Source of the DNA: Deltaproteobacteria bacterium
Lineage (GTDB): Bacteria; Desulfobacterota; Desulfomonilia; Desulfomonilales; Desulfomonilaceae
Reading direction: 5' to 3'
NCBI GenBank assembly: GCA_016875095.1
Contig: VGSG01000041.1
Location: 1-36,227 of the forward strand
DNA length: 36,227 nucleotides
Part shown: positions 12,967 to 23,922 of the stretch, in pieces
How the letters are laid out: each line of letters begins with the position of its first letter
How positions within the stretch are numbered: the first letter of the stretch is position 1
The notes under the pieces: generated by a model
The model's database searches: none
Told to the model about the DNA's origin: nothing
Seen by the model: only the letters and a program-made list of their open reading frames with translations
Position numbers and translations under genes: made by a program

Positions 12967-13308
12967 TCAGGTGTGTTCGCTCAGTATGATTCTCGTCTGT
13001 TCTTCAAGGGCGGGGATCTTCTCCTTAACGACATCCCACAATGTTTCTGCTTTAATGCCGAAGTACTCGTGGATGAGTACGTTGCGGAAGGCTGTGATCT
13101 TTCTCCAATCGATTCCTTCATATTTTGCCTTGATGTCGTCGGGTAAACGCTTAGCTGCCTCTCCGATGATCTCGAAATTCCGTATCACTGCATCCTGAGT
13201 TCTCAAATCTCCATGAAATTGCTCCAGAGACATTCCCTCAGTGTACAGTCGTAGCCTTCTACAGCACTCCAAGATGTCGTCCAGGTACAACCTATAATCC
13301 CGAGGCAT
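12967..13308 (-). CDS. hepT: HepT-like RNase toxin (DUF86)
   Basis: A 113-residue helical protein of the HEPN superfamily. The catalytic RX4HXY motif is intact: Arg75, His80, Tyr82 in FRNVLIHEYF. HepT cleaves RNA unless it is modified by its MNT partner, which transfers AMP to the motif tyrosine. It overlaps the end of the nucleotidyltransferase gene by 17 bases. The active site is complete, so the toxin is probably functional. Confidence 0.9.
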   Translation of the reverse strand: MPRDYRLYLDDILECCRRLRLYTEGMSLEQFHGDLRTQDAVIRNFEIIGEAAKRLPDDIKAKYEGIDWRKITAFRNVLIHEYFGIKAETLWDVVKEKIPALEEQTRIILSEHT

Positions 13309-13585
13309 AGACCGCGTCTTTCAGTATATAGGGTTTTATTCTTGGTTTGATGGTATCCTCCATCACGAGATCTACCTTGCGGCCGAAGATGTCTTCCAAA
13401 AAGAATTTCAGATCAAAATACTTGTCAAACGTAGCTTCATCAAGCAAAACGAGGAAATCTATGTCACTTGCTTCAGTATCTTCGTTTCGCGCGCACGAAC
13501 CAAATATCCCCAGACGGCGAACACCGAACCCTCGGATGGTGTCCCGGTTCTCTTCCAGCTTCTTGAGGATTTCGTCGCGAGTCAT
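13292..13585 (-). CDS. mntA: MntA-like minimal nucleotidyltransferase antitoxin
   Basis: A 97-residue protein with the polymerase-beta nucleotidyltransferase motif GSX10DXD, complete as Gly29-Ser30 to Asp41 and Asp43. The antitoxin adenylylates HepT on tyrosine and so silences it (type VII toxin-antitoxin). Its start codon overlaps the stop of a 25-codon ORF in an ATGA arrangement, and its end overlaps hepT. The order antitoxin then toxin is the usual one. Confidence 0.9.
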   Translation of the reverse strand: MTRDEILKKLEENRDTIRGFGVRRLGIFGSCARNEDTEASDIDFLVLLDEATFDKYFDLKFFLEDIFGRKVDLVMEDTIKPRIKPYILKDAVYASGL

Positions 13586-13679: not shown

Positions 13680-14066
13680 CTATTGTTCTTGCGCGAGATA
13701 CTCGATGATAAGGCCTTTGACGTGCTCGGTCATATTGTCCACGATTTGAGCGGCGTTTTCAGGACCGACATCCGGGGAGGTGATCAGCGCGTCCCATGAA
13801 GCGACGGCCCATTCCCGCAGAGCTTCCCGAAAAGGGCCACCCTGGCTTTCAAGAATTGCCACGATCGCCGCGTGAACCTGTTCTTCGGCCGGGAGATACT
13901 TGATCAGGGGCTTCATATGGGGCGGCCATTTGTTCGGATCGGGCTCCCTCATGAATATCTGCATGGCCTCATCACCCAGTTCGTCCAAGCGGTCGCGGGG
14001 GATAAGACCTTCCCCGATGGCCAGCACGCGATTGGGCAAGAGCGGTTTCTTGGGACGGTTCGCCAC
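13680..14066 (-). CDS. Conserved-looking hypothetical protein of the signalling operon
   Basis: A 128-residue, probably soluble protein, mostly helical and rich in proline near its N-terminus (such as RPKKPLLPNRVLAIGEG). I do not recognise the family. The GTG start is supported by AGGAG seven bases upstream. It follows the SpoIIE phosphatase gene with a 36-base gap on the same strand and could be a partner of that module. It has no signal peptide or membrane segment. Confidence 0.7.
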   Translation of the reverse strand: MANRPKKPLLPNRVLAIGEGLIPRDRLDELGDEAMQIFMREPDPNKWPPHMKPLIKYLPAEEQVHAAIVAILESQGGPFREALREWAVASWDALITSPDVGPENAAQIVDNMTEHVKGLIIEYLAQEQ

Positions 14067-14102
14067 GTTGTCACTCCTGGCTTGGGATCGTCGAGAGGGG
14101 GC

Positions 14103-15260
14103 CTAGTGGACTTCCAGGTTTACCTCTTTGCCTCTTTCCTTGAGCAGGTTCACGATAGCCTGCACACTGCGGCTCTTGAATCCCATCTCTTGCGGCATTT
14201 TCGGGTTCAGGTGCGCGGGGTTGATAGCCTGGCCAAGGAAAATGTTGATGCTGTCCGCGTGGAGGAATTCCCATGCCAGCCTGCTTGCGCCGTCCCGCTT
14301 ACCGGAAAGCTCTTCGATGTCCTTGATATTCATGAGGATGGTGCGGCAGCTATTCACCGTATGGACGCCTTCCGTGACCAGATCGATCCCTTCGAGATGG
14401 CCTGTGGGCGGTATCTTATCCGTCATGGTAGAGAGATCCACCACTACGTCTTTGTGGAGGATCTTGGCCAGGATGCCCGCGGTTGACCCGCCGCTTATGA
14501 CCTTGCGACCCGGCAGCTCCAGGAATCGTTGAGCGATTGCCGCATCCTCTTCGGGTTTAACCGGCGGGCCGATCATGAAGTTTGCGAAGCGTTTGGCTCG
14601 AATCTTCAGGACACCCGCGGTGGTGTCGTCTCCGGGCCGGTCTTGGTAAAGTTCGTTGGCCTGGTTAACGAGGATTTGGGCCACTTTTTGCGCTGAGATA
14701 TCTTCATGCACCTGAGTTTCGAGGAACTTGGCGATCTTTTCCCAATCCCACCCCAGGTTGAGCAGGCCTCCGATTCCCGCGTGGATTTCGCCGTCACTCA
14801 CCGTCACAAACCAGTCACCGGGCCCCACGTGGACGTGGGCTTCCCTGATTGTCCTTGTGCCGATGATGCGGTCCTTGTATTCGAGCCTGCTGACGTAACC
14901 TCGTTTCAGGAAAAACGTCGGCGGATTGTCGAATTCCGCCAGGTACGCGCGGCCGTCACCCTGGACTTTGAGAAGAGTAAAGGTGCTGTACGCGATCTTG
15001 CGGACCTGGCATTCGGGAAGAGTATCGGTCAGTGTATCGACCACTTCTTCTAGGGGAAGTCCTCTTTCCATAAGGCGAGTGGCTATGGTGGTGGTCAACG
15101 TGGCGAGGATGTTGGCTTTGACCCCACTGCCCAGGCCGTCGGAGAGCACCATGAGGCGACCGCCGTTCACAGAGCCCACGGATAAAGAATCGCCGCAGAG
15201 AATCTCCCCGAACTTGGAGACATGAGCCTCGCCGGTTTCGATGAACATCGGAACGCTCAT
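14103..15260 (-). CDS. SpoIIE-family PP2C-type serine phosphatase with C-terminal extension
   Basis: A 385-residue cytoplasmic protein. The PP2C/SpoIIE domain covers about residues 1-220 with the metal-binding aspartates in place: CGDS (Asp24), LSDGLGSG (Asp41), SDGEIHAG (Asp156) and RPGDDTTAG (Asp211, Asp212). The C-terminal part, about 225-385, is a separate domain I cannot name. It is of the type seen in SpoIIE proteins encoded near hydrogenases and their sensors in anaerobes (from memory). These phosphatases usually dephosphorylate an anti-sigma-factor antagonist or another phosphoserine protein. The start overlaps the sensor stop codon (ATGA), so synthesis is coupled to the sensor gene. 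Confidence 0.85.
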   Translation of the reverse strand: MSVPMFIETGEAHVSKFGEILCGDSLSVGSVNGGRLMVLSDGLGSGVKANILATLTTTIATRLMERGLPLEEVVDTLTDTLPECQVRKIAYSTFTLLKVQGDGRAYLAEFDNPPTFFLKRGYVSRLEYKDRIIGTRTIREAHVHVGPGDWFVTVSDGEIHAGIGGLLNLGWDWEKIAKFLETQVHEDISAQKVAQILVNQANELYQDRPGDDTTAGVLKIRAKRFANFMIGPPVKPEEDAAIAQRFLELPGRKVISGGSTAGILAKILHKDVVVDLSTMTDKIPPTGHLEGIDLVTEGVHTVNSCRTILMNIKDIEELSGKRDGASRLAWEFLHADSINIFLGQAINPAHLNPKMPQEMGFKSRSVQAIVNLLKERGKEVNLEVH

Positions 15261-17575
15261 TTGCCTTCACCTACCTCTTGAGCCAACTTCATCAGTTCAA
15301 AGAGGGCTGCTTTTGTTTCCGCGGTGGTCTCTCCCAGAAGCTGGGCGATCTCCTGCGCAACTCGCATCTGCTGGTGAATCACCTGCTGAGCCTTGGTGAT
15401 GGTTTCAGCCTTGAACACATCGGCCATCTGGTCTTTTTTCACCGTGTCGGTGATATCCAGAAGCATCAAAACCCGCAAGTCCTCCTCAGGGAGCTTGAAG
15501 TTGTAGAGCTTTGCGGTTCGACCGACCTTTTCCAGTTCGAGCCATCTGGATCCGGCGGCTTCTTCGCGGCCCTTGGCCCAATCAAGCGGGTCCACGCCGA
15601 AAAGTTCGTTGAACGTCTTGCCTTTGACCACCTGTTCCTGCCCATCGCGAGTTGCAAGCTCCACGAAAGCCCGATTGTTGTAGACTACGCGGTGGGCCTT
15701 ATCTGCCAGAGCTATGGCCACCGGGAGCCGCTGGAATATGGTGTCGGCCCTCTCTGCCGCGAGCTGGCGCCGGGTCTGTTGCACCATACGTTGGGTCTGG
15801 AGCGCGGTGTACACCATAAGCAGTATCTGGTGCGGCCCAAAGGGTTTGGGTATGTAATCGTACGCTCCCAGGTTGACCGCTTCTATCGCCTCTTCCGTGG
15901 CCTTAAACGGCGCTGTGAAGATGACCAACACTTCCGGCTGGCGATATTTTATCTCTTTGAGCAGCGTCTTGCCCGGCATCTCGGAAATATCCACATCAGC
16001 CACAACCACATCAAAGAATTCCTGTTCCAGTTCCCGAAGGGCCTCCTCCACCAAGCCGGTAACCCTGACTTGGAATCCTTCGTCGGTAAAGGCCCGTTCA
16101 CACAGCTCTCTGACTTTTTCGTCAGAATCAAGCACGAGGATACGGTTGGTGGCAGATTCCTGCGTCTCCTCTGTTCCCGCGAGCACCGGGACCATAGGAT
16201 CGGAGATGTGTCGCATGATATGCGACATGCCGTCAGCCATCTTTTCCAGGGAAGCCAGCTTTTTGACCCGCGCGACCTGCTCTTGCGCTTGCCTCAACTG
16301 ACCGGTCTTTTCCGCGACTTTGGAGGCAAGCTCTCTGCCCCATTCTTCGAGCTTAATTCGTGATTCGGCCAGACTGCGGATCATCAGATTGAAGGTCGCG
16401 GCCAGCTCTCCTACCTCGTCACGGGCAATTACCGGCACTTGTTGTGTCAGGTCTCCTTCCGCGGCTTTTCGGGCCGCATTCAGCATCAGCTCCAGCGGCC
16501 GGTTGATCCACTGGACCAGAAAGTACGATATGCCGGCCATCAGCAGCACACCGAACAGCGCGACGATGAAAAAGGTCGTTACCAGACGGTCCACCTCGGA
16601 GATTATCGGTTCCTCCAGAGTGGCGATCTCCAACGCGCCCACAATACCGCCCTGCATGTCACGGAGTGGATCCGCAGTGGAGAGGTAGGTTTTGCCGAGT
16701 TGGACCTCTTTGGCTATTGTGGGGAGGCCTTCCTGCTCCACCATCTTTCGGATGGCTGCCCCGCCTGCGAATCCCATTAAGGGCAACCCTTCGGGACCCT
16801 TCAAAGAACTGCTGATCGCCTGATTTGCCTGAAATATCGCGACGTAGCCAAGCGGTCGATTTCCATAGGTAGCGCCTTTGAAAATCAACTGGGAAACCTG
16901 GTCTACAATCAGATTGTTGCTGTTCAGGACCACACCGCCATACACGACGCTGTCGATCCCTGCCGAATCCACCAGAGGATAGGCTGATTCCAGCACCATT
17001 CCGGTCTCAGACGAACTCGCCGCAAGGCGTCGGAGCAACCCATTATTTTCCGCAGCCAGTTGCCGCTTGGTGAAGAGGCGCACTCCCGAACCGCCGCTGC
17101 CTTTCGCCGCTGCCATAACCAACGGGTCCCCGGCCACTATCTCGCCGTTGTTCGACGGCACGAAGGCCCTCACCAGCACACGCCCGTTCTTATCTGCGAT
17201 AGAGAGAAAATCCAGGTCGTTTTCCGCACAGACAATCGCCAGCCTGTTCCGCACCCCCTGGAGATCTCCTTTTGACATCAGTTCCTTGATGTTCTCAGAA
17301 CCCGCGATGAGCCTGACCTTGAGCTCCACATTCTTGCGGAACCCGTCCAAAATGAACCCTGCGGTGGCAAGATCGCTTGACAGTCTCACTTGCGCTCTGT
17401 CGATGATGGTGTCCCGAACCAACCGAGTTCCTATGAAAGCGGTCACAAGCCCTACGAGCACCACCACACCGAGGAATCCCCCCACCACCTTCTTTCGGAG
17501 AGAGAAGTCCTGCGCCCAGGCAGTGAACTCACTCCAGCTTTTCCAAGGCTTTCGTCGTTCCTGTGCAGACTCCAT
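15257..17575 (-). CDS. Membrane sensor: periplasmic sensor, HAMP, kinase H-box remnant, receiver, PAS
   Basis: A 772-residue protein from the ATG at 17573-17575, which has AAGGA eight bases upstream. A longer start at 17674 would run into the ferredoxin gene. Order: TM1 (about 29-49), a periplasmic Cache-like domain (50-330), TM2 (333-355), HAMP (356-408), a coiled coil, an H-box-like segment around His452 (SLEKMADGMSHIMRH), a receiver domain (478-598), a PAS domain (608-712) and a helical tail. The receiver has Asp483/485, phosphoacceptor Asp527, Thr554 and Lys577, so it looks functional. No HATPase domain is present, so it cannot phosphorylate itself. The tail contains QEIAQLLGETTAETK. It is co-transcribed with the SpoIIE phosphatase, which I infer to be its output. 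Confidence 0.85.
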   Translation of the reverse strand: MESAQERRKPWKSWSEFTAWAQDFSLRKKVVGGFLGVVVLVGLVTAFIGTRLVRDTIIDRAQVRLSSDLATAGFILDGFRKNVELKVRLIAGSENIKELMSKGDLQGVRNRLAIVCAENDLDFLSIADKNGRVLVRAFVPSNNGEIVAGDPLVMAAAKGSGGSGVRLFTKRQLAAENNGLLRRLAASSSETGMVLESAYPLVDSAGIDSVVYGGVVLNSNNLIVDQVSQLIFKGATYGNRPLGYVAIFQANQAISSSLKGPEGLPLMGFAGGAAIRKMVEQEGLPTIAKEVQLGKTYLSTADPLRDMQGGIVGALEIATLEEPIISEVDRLVTTFFIVALFGVLLMAGISYFLVQWINRPLELMLNAARKAAEGDLTQQVPVIARDEVGELAATFNLMIRSLAESRIKLEEWGRELASKVAEKTGQLRQAQEQVARVKKLASLEKMADGMSHIMRHISDPMVPVLAGTEETQESATNRILVLDSDEKVRELCERAFTDEGFQVRVTGLVEEALRELEQEFFDVVVADVDISEMPGKTLLKEIKYRQPEVLVIFTAPFKATEEAIEAVNLGAYDYIPKPFGPHQILLMVYTALQTQRMVQQTRRQLAAERADTIFQRLPVAIALADKAHRVVYNNRAFVELATRDGQEQVVKGKTFNELFGVDPLDWAKGREEAAGSRWLELEKVGRTAKLYNFKLPEEDLRVLMLLDITDTVKKDQMADVFKAETITKAQQVIHQQMRVAQEIAQLLGETTAETKAALFELMKLAQEVGEGK

Positions 17576-17594
17576 CCGCTTATTCCTTCGTGCG

Positions 17595-17843
17595 CTACTT
17601 GCGCTTACGGAGTATCTCTCGTTCGAAGATCTCCCGGGCGTCCTCCGGAGAATTGGCATGAAAGAGCTCTTCACCGATCAAGAGGTTTGCCCCGTCAGTG
17701 CACTTCTCCATGCAGAACGTGCCTTTGAGCTCAACTTCCTTTTCCAGGCGCGACTCCTCTATCGCCTTCTTGAAATACTCAATGATTTGATGTGACCCCT
17801 TCAGGTGACATGCGCTACCCACACACACAGTAATCACGGTCAT
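17595..17843 (-). CDS. Thioredoxin-like [2Fe-2S] ferredoxin
   Basis: An 82-residue protein of the NuoE/HydC-type thioredoxin-like ferredoxin family. The cluster ligands are Cys7, Cys12, Cys44 and Cys48 (CVGSAC and CMEKC), matching the C-X4-C...C-X3-C pattern. The start has AAAGGAG eight bases upstream. The sensor gene begins 19 bases after its stop. In anaerobes such small ferredoxins commonly accompany electron-bifurcating hydrogenases, but none is encoded here. I infer that it supplies a redox signal or electrons to the sensor system. Confidence 0.88.
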   Translation of the reverse strand: MTVITVCVGSACHLKGSHQIIEYFKKAIEESRLEKEVELKGTFCMEKCTDGANLLIGEELFHANSPEDAREIFEREILRKRK

Positions 17844-18115: not shown

Positions 18116-21100
18116 TCACGCAGATCTGCGCTCGAAATGGTCACGAACCTGTTCCATGAATGCTTCGAGGCGGGTCTTTTCGTTGGTCTTTTTGAGGCCG
18201 TCATATATCAGGGTGAGCATAGGCGTGGAGAATCTCTCTTTCAGCGCCCTCATGAGCACCGCAGTCACCACCGTGCCGTACGAACAATTGAGAGTCATTA
18301 GGTTCAGCAGGCCGTCCGCGCCGAGTTCCAGATGCTGGAGCGCAGTCGCGATGGGCGCGGTGATTCCGGAATGGAGCGCGGTGTGGGCATGCCGTGAGGC
18401 TGAGGCCCACATTGATCGGCCGCTCAAGTCGAGCGGGGCGTCGAGAGCCCTACGGGCCATTTCGCCGCCTTTGGCCTTGAATTCGGACATCATGAGGAAT
18501 AAGTAGAGCAAGCCGGCTTCAGCCGTTCCTCTCGATTGTCGGCTCAGGAGATTCCAGACCATGTCTCTCAACGTGGAGAGCTTCAAGCTGTCTGTCAGAG
18601 TGGGCGGAGACCAGAGCAAGCCTCCAAGCCTTTCCACTTCACGGTACACATCATTATTGGCAAACGGAATCACCCGCGTGTAGTAGTCTCCGGTAACCGC
18701 TACCACGGGCCTGGGGGGCGCAGGAACCGTGGGCGCCTCCCAAAGCTCATGAAGAGCATCTTCCATTCCTTGCCGAACCTGGTTGCGAGATATGGCCTCG
18801 AAGAGCTTGCCTCTCGCCCGGCCGTACACCTGATCCAGCAGGGACTCATCCTGCGCAAACGGTCGTATTCTGAGCATAAGCTTCAACAATACATCAAAGG
18901 CGTTTAACCCTTCCCATCCTCTGAGCAGGACCCGCTGCCGATTGTTCTCCGACAATCCGAAGGCTCTCAGACCCTCGTCAATCTCGGCGATTACTCCGAC
19001 GGAGTAGCCCAGTTCACGGCGCACCTTGTCCACGTGGACCGGGTACTGACCCATGCGGCACGCTTCAGGACCGGGAAAATAGAATAAGGATCGTTCCGCC
19101 GCGTGGGGAGGCAAGGAGCCCGCGAGCTTCAGATAGTCACCCAGCACTAGAGCGAAGGGATGGCACTCACCCCCCACAAGATGAGCGATCCCCAACTTGG
19201 CCGACTGTTCGTCCGGAGGCGGCAAGACTCGCGCATCCACCCCTACGGACCGCGCGGCCGCGGCAAATCCGTAAGAATGATCGGCAAAATAAGGTATGTA
19301 AAGGTATTCGGGCCGCTGGCGCCCCGTGCTCGCCTTGGCCCGGAATGAACAACCAGAGACGGACGCCGGAATCGGCCGCGTTCGGTGGTCCTGGAGACGC
19401 TTCAGAGGAGCTTTCCGTTCTCTTTTCGCCCTTCCGTCTCTGATGTTGTCCAGGAAAGCCTCAAGCCTGGTCATGGCCCCCGCCCTGGACGTATGTTCGT
19501 CCATTTCCAAAACGAGAAGAGGCTTTGCCCCGAGCGCGTCCCAGATGTGGCGCAGGGTGAACGGATCAGGGCCGCATCCGAAGAAGGTGATCAACACGGG
19601 AAAGAGCCGATCGTCCGACGCGATACGACGCGCGACCCTGACCATCTGGGCCTCGTACTTCCAGCCCACCGGCGCGGGCTCGTCATCGGCTGCGTCCCCA
19701 AGCAGGTCCGAAGGCGCGGCGGCCACACCCAACCTGTGGAAAAGGCTGCCCAGGTTCATGTTTAAGAAGCGATCCGCCGTATGGTACGGCTTGCCCAAGG
19801 CAACCAAAGCAGGCTCGTCTCCCTCCGGAGAGTTGAGGAATTGTCTCCCCGCCGCCCTCAACTTGGCTTGGAAATGATTGAGCTGCTCAAAGCCTTGTTC
19901 CACCGCTTGCCTGGCCTTCGCGCGTGAAAAGCCCTCCCTCCGGGCCAGACGCAGATGCTCTCTCTCAAACGAATGAGGGTCAAACTCGTGCTTGATCACC
20001 GGCTCCTTCCATTCCACGGGGAAGACCCCCTTGAAGAACTGTGAAGACGCCTGGATATACGGACAATGCGCCGTGGGCTTGTCAGAGGCCCCCCAAGGCG
20101 GCTCGGAAAGGATCGTGGGACAAAAGACACTCTGAACGCCGGAGCCGACCAGATCCGCCAACTGCCCATACAAGACCTTCAGGGGCAGGCATGTCTCCAC
20201 TTTGAGGAACCGCAAACCTCGCTCGAATTGTTTCCGATCCGCTGCTCCCGCCACAGCGAGGGATATGCCCAAAGTTCGACAAAACGCGCTCCAGAACGGA
20301 AACCATTCGAAAAAATGAGGAGAGCGAATCATTCCCCACGTTCGCTCCCCAGAGCTTTCCGGCTGAGACAATTCCTCCAGCAGCTTGCCCCTCAACTGAA
20401 ACAAATTTCCGTCGGACCGGGCCGCATCACCGCCCTGCTCCACTTCCCAGCGGTCGCACAGCCCGCCGTGGTAAACGATCCGCCCGCCAGGCCGATACTT
20501 ATCCACCATGCATTCATTGGAACAACCACGGCACCTGAACTGACTTCTGGGGATTTGTTCAGCATTGAAATCGATCTCTCGCGGCTCCTTCATGGGGATT
20601 TCGTCTCTTTTCAGGCTGTCCGCGAGTTTCAGGGCGGCCCCCAGCGCTCCGGACACTTTATAGAACGCGGGCGAACGAAGCTCCCGCCCGGTTTGATGCT
20701 TGAACGCCGCTCGCACGGCAGGAGCCGCGGCAACACCACCCAGGAAGAGGACATTCTCGCCCAGGGTCTTGTTGGTCGCCACCCGCTCCAGGTAATTCTG
20801 CACGATGCTGACACACACTCCCGCGGCCAGATCCTCAGAGGAAGCGCCGTTGTTCTGGTGGTGGATCAGGTCGGACTCCATAAAAACCGTGCATCGAGTT
20901 CCCAGGTCCGCGGGGGCGGCTGACGCGAGAGCCGCATTGGAGAATTGCGACTCAATGGCAAGTCCCAAGCGTTCCGCTTGTTCCAGGAGGAAGCTTCCCG
21001 TGCCGGCCGCACACACCCGGTTCATCTCGAAATCTTTCACCGCGCCGTTCTCAAGGCTTATCCATTTCGAATCCTGCCCACCGATTTCCACCACCGTATC

Positions 21101-22342
21101 GGTCCGCGCGTCGTAGCTCACGGCAGCCCTGGCTTGGGCTGTTATCTCGTTCAGGATCAGGTCCGCGTCAATGAGGCGTCCTGCCAAGTATCTGCCGCTG
21201 CCGGTCACTGCGACCAGCGCCGGCGCGGTTTCCGAAGAGCAGAGAGCGGAGATGACCGCTCCCAGTGTCTCCAAAGGCCGCGATCGGGAAAGGCGGTAGT
21301 CCTCAGCGAGTATCCGACCGTCTGCGTCAATCACCACTCCTTTGACGGAAACCGATCCTACATCGAGCCCTAAGACCAAAGGCTGAGCCTTCGGATCCGC
21401 ATGGAGACGATCATCTACCTTTGATAACGCCTGCAGCCGCGGACGTTCCAGCGGCTTGAGCGGAGACCGCGCGGCAGGTCGGGCTAAGCTGCCTAAGGCC
21501 CGCTCTTTGAGCTCAGCCAGAGCGCAAGGTCCTTGTTCAGCAGTCCTCCCCGCGATGAGGGCGCATCCCAGGGCCCCCAGCACAGTGAAATGCCGCGGCA
21601 CGGTGATCAATTCGTCAGGAAGCTCCAGCAGATCCCTGAACGCCTTCACCACCGCGGAGTTACTCATCACTCCGCCTTGCAAGGAGACCACGGGTTCCAA
21701 AGGATCTCCCCGGACCAAGGTCGCAATGTAGTTGCGGGCCAGCGCATACGCGACGCCCATGAGGATGTCGGGGAGCGGAGCGCCCTCCTGGGCCCTATGG
21801 ATCATGTCCGTTTTGGCAAAGACCGCGCAACGGCCTGCTATGGGAGCAGGATTAGCGCTGCGGAGCGCCACGGACCCGAATTCTTCAATGCGGATTCCGA
21901 GCCTCGCCGCCTGTTCGTCAAGGAACGCGCCTGTGCCGGCGGCGCAGACTTCGTTCATCCTGAAGACGGAAAATCGGGGGAGTTCGTTTTCGGCGGGGGC
22001 CTCGAGTCGGATGAACTTGGAATCCTGGCCTCCGATTTCAATGATCGTGCGCACCGCCGAATCAACGTGGAGCACGCCCGCCGAATGCGCGGTGATCTCG
22101 TTAACCGCGGGGATGCGTAGCGAGCGCGCCAAGAGTTCCCGCCCGCTCCCGGTGGCAAGAACACGGTCCAGCGCGACATCTTGCCCGCACAGATCGATGA
22201 GTTCATCAAGGCCGAGGATCAGGGCTTGCAGTGGCCTGCCGGAGGTGCGACGGTATACGGTGAGCGGCTCATCCGTGGGATTCCGGAGGAGCGCCAGGTT
22301 GAGACTGGTTGAGCCGCAATCGATTCCCAGGCGAATTTCCAT
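18116..22342 (-). CDS. Giant fused 2-hydroxyacyl-CoA dehydratase activase/dehydratase-like protein
   Basis: About 1408 residues from the ATG at 22340-22342 (an in-frame ATG at 22417 would overlap the upstream gene). Two ASKHA ATPase domains of the BadF/BcrA/HgdC family come first, about 1-275 and 320-575. Each has a DCGST/DVGSV phosphate loop, GGQDSK, and both cluster cysteines: Cys133 and Cys172, then Cys444 and Cys484. A cysteine-rich segment (Cys604, 607, 611, 629) leads into a DUF2229-like region and a C-terminal part resembling the dehydratase component, with GGECHPF and GPEACRMGQYP. Classical activases use ATP to send one very low-potential electron to a [4Fe-4S] dehydratase or benzoyl-CoA reductase. 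This fusion has both roles in one chain, and its substrate is unknown. No separate dehydratase subunits are nearby. Confidence 0.85.
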   Translation of the reverse strand: MEIRLGIDCGSTSLNLALLRNPTDEPLTVYRRTSGRPLQALILGLDELIDLCGQDVALDRVLATGSGRELLARSLRIPAVNEITAHSAGVLHVDSAVRTIIEIGGQDSKFIRLEAPAENELPRFSVFRMNEVCAAGTGAFLDEQAARLGIRIEEFGSVALRSANPAPIAGRCAVFAKTDMIHRAQEGAPLPDILMGVAYALARNYIATLVRGDPLEPVVSLQGGVMSNSAVVKAFRDLLELPDELITVPRHFTVLGALGCALIAGRTAEQGPCALAELKERALGSLARPAARSPLKPLERPRLQALSKVDDRLHADPKAQPLVLGLDVGSVSVKGVVIDADGRILAEDYRLSRSRPLETLGAVISALCSSETAPALVAVTGSGRYLAGRLIDADLILNEITAQARAAVSYDARTDTVVEIGGQDSKWISLENGAVKDFEMNRVCAAGTGSFLLEQAERLGLAIESQFSNAALASAAPADLGTRCTVFMESDLIHHQNNGASSEDLAAGVCVSIVQNYLERVATNKTLGENVLFLGGVAAAPAVRAAFKHQTGRELRSPAFYKVSGALGAALKLADSLKRDEIPMKEPREIDFNAEQIPRSQFRCRGCSNECMVDKYRPGGRIVYHGGLCDRWEVEQGGDAARSDGNLFQLRGKLLEELSQPESSGERTWGMIRSPHFFEWFPFWSAFCRTLGISLAVAGAADRKQFERGLRFLKVETCLPLKVLYGQLADLVGSGVQSVFCPTILSEPPWGASDKPTAHCPYIQASSQFFKGVFPVEWKEPVIKHEFDPHSFEREHLRLARREGFSRAKARQAVEQGFEQLNHFQAKLRAAGRQFLNSPEGDEPALVALGKPYHTADRFLNMNLGSLFHRLGVAAAPSDLLGDAADDEPAPVGWKYEAQMVRVARRIASDDRLFPVLITFFGCGPDPFTLRHIWDALGAKPLLVLEMDEHTSRAGAMTRLEAFLDNIRDGRAKRERKAPLKRLQDHRTRPIPASVSGCSFRAKASTGRQRPEYLYIPYFADHSYGFAAAARSVGVDARVLPPPDEQSAKLGIAHLVGGECHPFALVLGDYLKLAGSLPPHAAERSLFYFPGPEACRMGQYPVHVDKVRRELGYSVGVIAEIDEGLRAFGLSENNRQRVLLRGWEGLNAFDVLLKLMLRIRPFAQDESLLDQVYGRARGKLFEAISRNQVRQGMEDALHELWEAPTVPAPPRPVVAVTGDYYTRVIPFANNDVYREVERLGGLLWSPPTLTDSLKLSTLRDMVWNLLSRQSRGTAEAGLLYLFLMMSEFKAKGGEMARRALDAPLDLSGRSMWASASRHAHTALHSGITAPIATALQHLELGADGLLNLMTLNCSYGTVVTAVLMRALKERFSTPMLTLIYDGLKKTNEKTRLEAFMEQVRDHFERRSA

Positions 22343-22373
22343 GGCGGCCGCATCGTCTGCTATTCCCGCCGGA

Positions 22374-23249
22374 TTAGAGCGCTCGCAGGAATTCCGGCCG
22401 TAATTTGCTCCTGTCACGGGAACTCATTACGCGCTCGATGGCCTTCAGTATCTGTTCCTTGTCCCGCGGAAGCGTCGCCTTCACCGGCAGGTAGTTGGAC
22501 GCGTGGTTGGAACGGAATACGCAATGAGAAAAAGAGGAATCGCTTATCATGATCCTCAGTTCGTCTATAAGTCCGAATGGATCAGGCAGCTCGAAGCGGC
22601 CTTCCATATACTCCCTATGCAGCTCGGTCCCGGGAACGACTATGACGCTGAGCGCTCCCACATAATTGGGGTCCATGTCGGTTAAGATCCGCGCGGTTTC
22701 GCGGGCGTGCCTTTCACTCTGCGCGACTCCCCCTATGCCCAAGAGGACAGTCACCGAGAGCGCAATTCCTACTTGCTTCACTCTCCGGGCCGCTTCAACC
22801 AATTCTTCGTATGAGGCGCCCTTGCGGATCTTTTCGAGCAACTCCCGATCGCCGGTTTCCACACCGAGATAGATGATTCCCAGTTTCAGGTCACGCAATA
22901 TCTGCAAATCTTCCAGGGGTTTGCGCAGAATGTTCTTTGCATTCGCGTAGATACCCACCCGCTCAAGCGAAGGGAAGTATTCGTTGACGAGCTTGAGCGC
23001 CTCAACCAACCTCTTCTGCGGAATGCACAAAGCGTCGCCGTCCGCTAAGAAGACCCGATCCACCGGGCCCATGTGACGGGCATCTTCCAGATCCTGCCTG
23101 ATCTCTTCCAGACTTCGAATCTTGAAACGCTTTTCGAGATAACTGCCGCAGAATGAGCACTTGTTATGACTGCACCCCAATGTGGCCTGGATAATCAGGC
23201 TGTCGGCTTCACTGGGAGGTCTATAAACCGCGCCGATATATCTCACCAT
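22374..23249 (-). CDS. Radical SAM protein (Elp3/YgiQ-like) next to the dehydratase activase
   Basis: A 291-residue protein whose radical SAM core spans nearly its full length. The cluster motif is CX4CX2C (Cys26, Cys31, Cys34, GCSHNKCSFC), the spaced variant typical of one COG1032-like subgroup. FLADGDALCIP and LGVETGDRELLEKIRKG are the glycine-rich SAM-binding and barrel motifs of HemN/Elp3-like enzymes. The ATG has AAGGA six bases upstream. It ends 31 bases before the chosen start of the activase gene, so the two are probably an operon. No function is known for this subgroup; it may act in tRNA or cofactor modification. Confidence 0.82.
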   Translation of the reverse strand: MVRYIGAVYRPPSEADSLIIQATLGCSHNKCSFCGSYLEKRFKIRSLEEIRQDLEDARHMGPVDRVFLADGDALCIPQKRLVEALKLVNEYFPSLERVGIYANAKNILRKPLEDLQILRDLKLGIIYLGVETGDRELLEKIRKGASYEELVEAARRVKQVGIALSVTVLLGIGGVAQSERHARETARILTDMDPNYVGALSVIVVPGTELHREYMEGRFELPDPFGLIDELRIMISDSSFSHCVFRSNHASNYLPVKATLPRDKEQILKAIERVMSSRDRSKLRPEFLRAL

Positions 23250-23340
23250 TTCTGATCCTTCGTAAGACCTTCAGTCAATCGGGCGCAATGAACTGCGCCT
23301 CCACTCCGCCCCATAGAAGCGCTTAGGTCGTGGAGACACG

Positions 23341-23922
23341 CTATCGATAATCGATCCCGGACTGCACAAACTTTTCAAACTTCTCTCTCGCCGAGTCAAT
23401 AAGGTCTCCTTCGGCCCTGACAAAAATATAATAGAGGAAGGCATCCCCTTCCACAAGATAGAGTCTACTAAATACCGGCGCCACAGGGCCGTACAGGACT
23501 CGGATCGATGCGCCGGAATTCGGGTCGATCATTGAGCCGAACGTCCATCCCGGCGGGACGTTTTCTTGAGTAGCGTCCGCGGGTGCCCGCTGCCTCCTCC
23601 GAATGTATTTGGTCCTGAAAGTGACCCGGTATGCCTTTCGTTTATCAATGGTGAGGTATTCCTCCAAGTCTCCCGGCCGGATAATCTCGCCCCCGGGGAA
23701 AAAGGCATTGTAGTGGATGGCCAAGTTGTCCAGCTTCCGCGGCATGGCGGCCTTGCGAATCTCTATGAGGACGCTGTCATCCTTGTTTCCGAACCTCTCT
23801 GTGGAGTCGTCTTCGTACAACAGGGCATACGGCTCATAGAGGATCTCCGTTATGCCCCGGGGCGCCGAGCAGCCCACCGCAAAGACGGTAACCAGACAGA
23901 ACAAGAGGAGGCCCACTCGCAC
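23341..23922 (-). CDS. Hypothetical lipoprotein
   Basis: A 193-residue protein with a signal peptide ending in the lipobox AVGC (lipidated Cys18). The mature part is mixed alpha/beta with no family I recognise. The GTG start has GGGGG about six bases upstream. It lies 66 bases downstream of the TPR protein gene on the same strand and is probably co-transcribed. The envelope location is inferred from the lipobox. Confidence 0.65.
   Translation of the reverse strand: MRVGLLLFCLVTVFAVGCSAPRGITEILYEPYALLYEDDSTERFGNKDDSVLIEIRKAAMPRKLDNLAIHYNAFFPGGEIIRPGDLEEYLTIDKRKAYRVTFRTKYIRRRQRAPADATQENVPPGWTFGSMIDPNSGASIRVLYGPVAPVFSRLYLVEGDAFLYYIFVRAEGDLIDSAREKFEKFVQSGIDYR

Follow-up and report, generated by a model that had tools for sequence, protein, structure and literature searches.

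A HydS/HfsABC-type phosphatase module of Desulfomonilaceae in which a membrane dCache-HAMP-receiver sensor probably replaces the hydrogenase input

The cassette within positions 13680-17843 of the window (the whole stretch of DNA analyzed, 36,227 nucleotides long, which is contig 41 of a 4.7 Mb assembly with a stated completeness of 100) is probably a HydS/HfsABC-type phosphatase module whose hydrogenase input has been replaced by a membrane dCache-HAMP-receiver sensor, and we propose that this sensor signals to the phosphatase in trans. The conserved unit comprises three genes, encoding a ferredoxin, a membrane sensor and a SpoIIE/PP2C phosphatase. Features of the HydS/HfsABC-type module that are present at the locus are a phosphatase with a C-terminal domain, a PAS-helix protein directly upstream of it and a thioredoxin-like [2Fe-2S] protein before that. 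We also lean toward a family-wide rewiring of the H2-sensing HydS pathway in these sulfate-reducer-like bacteria, with a Cache/receiver sensor brought in and the PAS-helix, phosphatase and ferredoxin retained.

The three cassette genes and a neighboring 128 amino acid open reading frame all lie on the minus strand. The first gene (17595..17843) encodes a thioredoxin-like [2Fe-2S] ferredoxin of 82 amino acids (PF01257, E 8.2e-9) and is separated by 19 bases from the second (15257..17575), which encodes a membrane sensor of 772 amino acids with a TM-dCache-TM-HAMP-linker-REC-PAS-helix architecture, as judged from Pfam, hydropathy and AlphaFold2. The best start for the sensor is the ATG at 17575; a longer GTG frame would overlap the ferredoxin gene. 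An ATGA overlap joins the sensor gene to the third (14103..15260), encoding a SpoIIE/PP2C-type serine phosphatase of 385 amino acids (PF07228, E 2.6e-16). The 128 amino acid frame (13680..14066; GTG start with AGGAG in front, no assigned family) follows after 36 bp. Promoter and terminator scans of the locus yielded no more than shuffled sequences. These positions bear out an earlier note on this DNA as to four genes in one direction and the ATGA overlap; the four-gene operon that it described is instead a three-gene module. The 128 amino acid protein has no family match and no homolog at the relatives' loci, and its gene was rejected as a fourth operon member, since no homolog follows the phosphatase in any relative. 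The gene in that position varies between genera, which places the 128 amino acid gene outside the conserved unit; it is lineage-specific.

The surroundings differ in how far they are shared. Directly downstream of the 128 amino acid gene is a toxin-antitoxin pair of the MntA/HepT type (12967-13585; PF01909, PF01934), absent there in relatives. In four relatives a family of 286-288 amino acids follows the phosphatase on the same strand (L020:5716-6582, L021:10242-11102, L022:10359-11222 and L029:5270-6136), with no Pfam match for the one member scanned. Before the cassette, 18116-23922 encodes a putative lipoprotein of 193 amino acids, a radical SAM protein (23246-22377) and a 2-hydroxyacyl-CoA dehydratase activase-like protein of 1433 amino acids. 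The radical SAM gene is kept upstream of the cassette in most relatives and the activase gene in some.

Among 18 genomes of the order Desulfomonilales, the phosphatase is present in every one, at 75-83% identity. The sensor gene lies directly upstream of it in all 17 genomes in which the contig continues, so that the gene order seen here is kept in every testable relative, and the ferredoxin precedes the sensor wherever the relatives' sequence reaches far enough. Distances for the parts of the sensor correlate with those of the phosphatase (r 0.77-0.91 by sensor part), as expected under vertical inheritance, which rules out unrelated histories for the two proteins. Neither outcome that the earlier note named as a refutation, genes lying apart in relatives or separate histories of sensor and phosphatase, is seen. 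Over the computable pairs, dN/dS is 0.11-0.14 in the Cache domain and lower, 0.009-0.07, in the PAS-helix, phosphatase, ferredoxin, HAMP-linker and REC; all parts of the cassette are under strong purifying selection. Chance falls far short of explaining the cassette, given its synteny (17/17), invariant catalytic residues and dN/dS values of 0.01-0.14. That it is a decayed relict, functionless after hydrogenase loss, might be suggested by the near family-wide loss of [FeFe]-hydrogenase. This reading is contradicted by the selection data (dN/dS 0.01-0.07 for phosphatase, ferredoxin and PAS-helix), and the invariant catalytic residues, the retention in 18/18 genomes and the newly acquired, complete sensor also speak against it; we regard it as highly improbable.

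The absence of a hydrogenase, claimed earlier for the locus, extends to the genome as far as [FeFe] enzymes are concerned. No [FeFe]-hydrogenase is present in the window or the whole assembly (PF02906, 0 matches at completeness 100), and a copy elsewhere in this genome was rejected on the same count. Counting this genome, 17 of the 18 in the order are without PF02906; a match is found only in G011, whose group A [FeFe]-hydrogenase is encoded far from the cassette. HydF exceeds the cut-off only in G011 and G006, leaving 16 of 18 genomes without a match at that level. In G006, a Desulfomonilaceae genome that yielded no [FeFe]-hydrogenase, the HydF maturase gene (G006:C349:369-1535, L207) is complete, possibly reflecting an incomplete assembly or contamination; as G006 is 85% complete, an unseen [FeFe]-hydrogenase may exist there. 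[NiFe] hydrogenases occur in 18/18 genomes of the order, so H2 metabolism has not been lost.

An alignment of the phosphatase was searched against 395 genomes of the phylum (Desulfobacterota) and 398 of Bacillota, and the family was found in 15 genomes outside Desulfomonilaceae and in 120 Bacillota genomes. We fetched 115 of these loci, 15 from other Desulfobacterota and 100 from Bacillota. A HydS-type protein occupies the sensor's slot in 114 of them, on the same strand and with no more than 87 bases between it and the phosphatase; one locus (L128) carries a second HydS copy upstream besides the adjoining one. The sole exception is L179 (G415, Bacillota), where the phosphatase has no HydS beside it. 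A Pfam check of three HydS proteins gave Fer4, the [FeFe]-hydrogenase H-domain, PF04060 and a PAS domain ending in a conserved helix. A thioredoxin-like [2Fe-2S] domain lies upstream in 104 of the 115 loci, sometimes just as the tail of a HydA that comes before. Two Bacillota loci (L036 and L037) have the order ferredoxin, HydS, phosphatase, group B-like hydrogenase, and at L035 HydABC-type genes follow the cassette. The earlier note held that such ferredoxins and SpoIIE phosphatases travel with bifurcating or sensory [FeFe]-hydrogenases. For the sensory enzyme, HydS, this stands; the bifurcating or catalytic enzyme is a frequent neighbor of the HydS cassette. The note's placing of a membrane sensor where a hydrogenase would be is also confirmed, in that the sensor sits in the exact HydS slot, a position that is constant throughout the family.

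The C-terminal end of the sensor (aa 613-772; 15260..15739, minus strand) ties it to HydS. Its PAS match falls under the Pfam cut-off and was confirmed by profile comparison: hhalign against 104 HydS sequences aligned the PAS domain at 94.9% (E 4.5e-8) and the helix, "MRVAQEIAxLLGETTAETK", at 99.8% (E 4e-30). This alignment indicates that the HydS output end was retained and the hydrogenase part exchanged. In the phosphatase tree, Desulfomonilaceae form one clade (support 100) with HydS-bearing rows on both sides, so a single exchange is enough to account for the distribution, and the hydrogenase domain would have been replaced in one event, no later than the base of the family. For an exchange in the opposite direction, the tree would have to be rooted within that branch; the tree alone leaves the direction unfixed. 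We found no report of such a swap in the open literature searched, and within the same open literature no paper pairing Desulfomonile tiedjei with SpoIIE.

The remainder of the sensor is that of a membrane receptor, with Pfam matches to sCache_3_3, HAMP and Response_reg. Hydropathy predicts two transmembrane segments (approximately residues 26-55 and 327-358) enclosing ∼270 periplasmic residues. This periplasmic domain (∼aa 55-322; 16610..17413, minus strand) is assigned as a dCache from the sCache_3_3 match, a dCache_3 Pfam match in a relative's sensor and Foldseek matches of the AlphaFold2 model to DctB (3by9) and LuxQ (3c38). The model is mostly good over the periplasmic domain (pLDDT ∼80-90) and poor at the PAS-helix end (pLDDT <50). 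The dCache is the fastest evolving part of the sensor, with a mean distance of 0.52 against 0.18 for the PAS-helix. It is followed on the same strand by the HAMP domain (∼aa 356-407; 16355..16510; PF00672, E 5.7e-14) and the receiver domain (∼aa 478-592; 15800..16144; PF00072, E 7e-21). Alignment columns show the receiver's phospho-acceptor, D527, kept in 11 of 13 relatives and replaced by Ala or Glu in the other two; K577 is kept in all 13, and the acidic pocket is retained. Pfam searches of the full sensor found neither HisKA nor HATPase_c, which rules out both a histidine kinase and an intact hybrid kinase. A HisKA remnant suspected by eye in the linker (KLASLEKMADGMSH) matched nothing in Pfam even with E allowed up to 10, and we do not claim it. 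Possible donors of the sensor's receiver domain occur in one genus, where four loci (L026, L028, L030 and L032, at about 1-2600) have genes for histidine kinase-like proteins and single receivers ∼4-6 kb upstream of the cassette.

By its domain content the sensor is not a group C sensory [FeFe]-hydrogenase. The locus resembles group C (M2f) HydS systems (Ruminococcus albus and, by architecture, Thermotoga maritima) in gene slot, PAS with C-terminal helix, phosphatase family and kind of ferredoxin. Unlike HydS, however, the sensor lacks Fer4, the H-cluster domain (PF02906) and PF04060 and has a membrane dCache-HAMP-REC portion instead, in a genome that has no [FeFe]-hydrogenase. In R. albus, the group C hydrogenase with a PAS domain, accompanied by a putative Ser/Thr phosphatase, has been proposed to sense H2 (PMC6776011). 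A second comparison is with hfsABCD of Thermoanaerobacterium, where HfsB is a hydrogenase with a PAS domain and HfsC is predicted to be a serine phosphatase (PMC5707799, PMC11837493). The pairing of a PAS protein with a predicted serine phosphatase is the same in both, and L036 and L037 show the matching gene order; in the window, by contrast, no HfsD-type hydrogenase follows and gene 2 is not a hydrogenase. Deletion of hfsB, hfsC or hfsD has regulatory phenotypes: loss of hfsA or hfsB raises ethanol yield, and loss of hfsC or hfsD directs flux to lactate (PMC5707799, PMC11837493).

The ferredoxin has its [2Fe-2S] cysteines at C7, C12, C44 and C48, and among solved structures it is closest to the C-terminal domain of T. 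maritima HydA (7p5h). It remains the first cassette gene in the family even without a hydrogenase. All four cysteine ligands are kept in 17/17 homologs, and this conservation is the sole basis for giving it a likely role as a cytoplasmic redox check on the module. A stronger role for it is conceivable: the sensor could be mainly a redox or low-potential electron sensor. The PAS domain, or a cofactor in it, would then receive electrons or redox state from the ferredoxin, and the Cache/HAMP portion would be no more than a membrane anchor. The full set of cysteines and the retention of the ferredoxin in first place are consistent with this, as is the finding that deletion of hfsA, which encodes the putative counterpart of the ferredoxin, mimics deletion of hfsB, although the hfsA deletion also lowered hfsB, hfsC and hfsD expression (PMC5707799). 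However, the alignment shows no Fe-S ligands conserved in the sensor, its single mostly-Cys column giving no sign of an Fe-S site, and the Cache is fully retained as a folded, constrained dCache (dN/dS ∼0.11-0.14). We consider a mainly redox-sensing role unlikely. The redox signal suggested in the earlier note is not borne out by the sensor, which is without conserved Fe-S cysteines; the ferredoxin is the only evident redox protein of the cassette.

The phosphatase is, by its metal-ligand aspartates and predicted fold, of the SpoIIE-type PP2C class. D41, D156, D211 and D212 are invariant in 17 sequences from two phyla, and the AlphaFold2 model (pLDDT 84) matches SpoIIE (5mqh, E 1.5e-13) and also 3pu9 in Foldseek. 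Residues 223-385 form an extra, family-specific C-terminal α/β domain that is kept from Bacillota to Desulfobacterota and has no significant sequence relative in Pfam or the PDB. The window phosphatase shares 38-44% identity over its full length, and the invariant motifs, with Bacillota members; as a query against its own genome it matched only itself. RsbU, RsbP and SpoIIE of partner-switching systems have the same PP2C fold of SpoIIE kind and PAS, HAMP or REC inputs acting via a helix. In contrast to these, the window sensor and phosphatase are separate proteins, the phosphatase has its extra domain and the locus encodes no partner-switching proteins. Membrane sensing is tied to a SpoIIE-type phosphatase also in SiaA, the Pseudomonas aeruginosa membrane PP2C phosphatase with a HAMP domain, which matches in the HAMP region. 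SiaA is a single polypeptide and, unlike the cassette, has no REC, PAS or HydS helix and no ferredoxin partner.

Beyond the observed gene content, order, homology and selection, we infer a signal path from the sensor through the phosphatase to a phosphoserine target. A periplasmic ligand would bind the Cache domain, and the signal would be relayed through HAMP and PAS to the C-terminal helix; an unlinked histidine kinase may phosphorylate the receiver domain and so tune the Cache signal. The dimeric helix would then contact the stand-alone SpoIIE phosphatase in trans and switch it, by analogy with the linker helices of RsbU and RsbP, which act in cis. Coiled-coil linkers from diverse, exchangeable sensors activate RsbU-type/SpoIIE-type phosphatases (PMC12143880). 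The phosphatase would remove the phosphate from a serine of a regulator, for which a STAS anti-anti-sigma factor is the most likely candidate. A candidate target pair is encoded in this genome at G000:C5:104973-105971 (L237, L243), where the gene for a STAS protein adjoins that for an RsbW-like kinase downstream of it; no SpoIIE phosphatase gene was seen next to the two. The pair is unlinked to the cassette, which favors an alternative in which metabolic enzymes or another regulator are direct substrates of the phosphatase, in place of STAS/RsbW partner switching. The C-terminal domain, common to Bacillota and Desulfobacterota, likewise suggests a specialized substrate, and AdhE activity changes post-transcriptionally in hfsB mutants (PMC5707799). 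Against a direct target stands the PP2C domain itself, which is of the SpoIIE/RsbU kind. To our knowledge, characterized phosphatases of that kind act on STAS proteins. Direct action is a serious possibility, to which we give rather less than even weight.

If the proposed family-wide rewiring is real, the helix-phosphatase unit would be a separable output of HydS, and the ferredoxin a signaling part of the module, not an electron supplier to a hydrogenase. The strong selection on the PAS domain, helix, ferredoxin and phosphatase after loss of the hydrogenase points to a minimal output unit that could be studied without H-cluster chemistry, and so bears on the open question of how HydS hands on its signal; for the related TamHydS, a redox change of the C-terminal cluster has been argued against as that signal (PMC13104023). 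A toolkit of exchangeable sensors has been proposed for SpoIIE-type phosphatases (PMC12143880), and the cassette would also be a naturally occurring case of it, operating between two proteins. For the Desulfomonilaceae, an H2-sensing switch appears to have been rewired to another signal, via a sensor that faces the outside of the cell.
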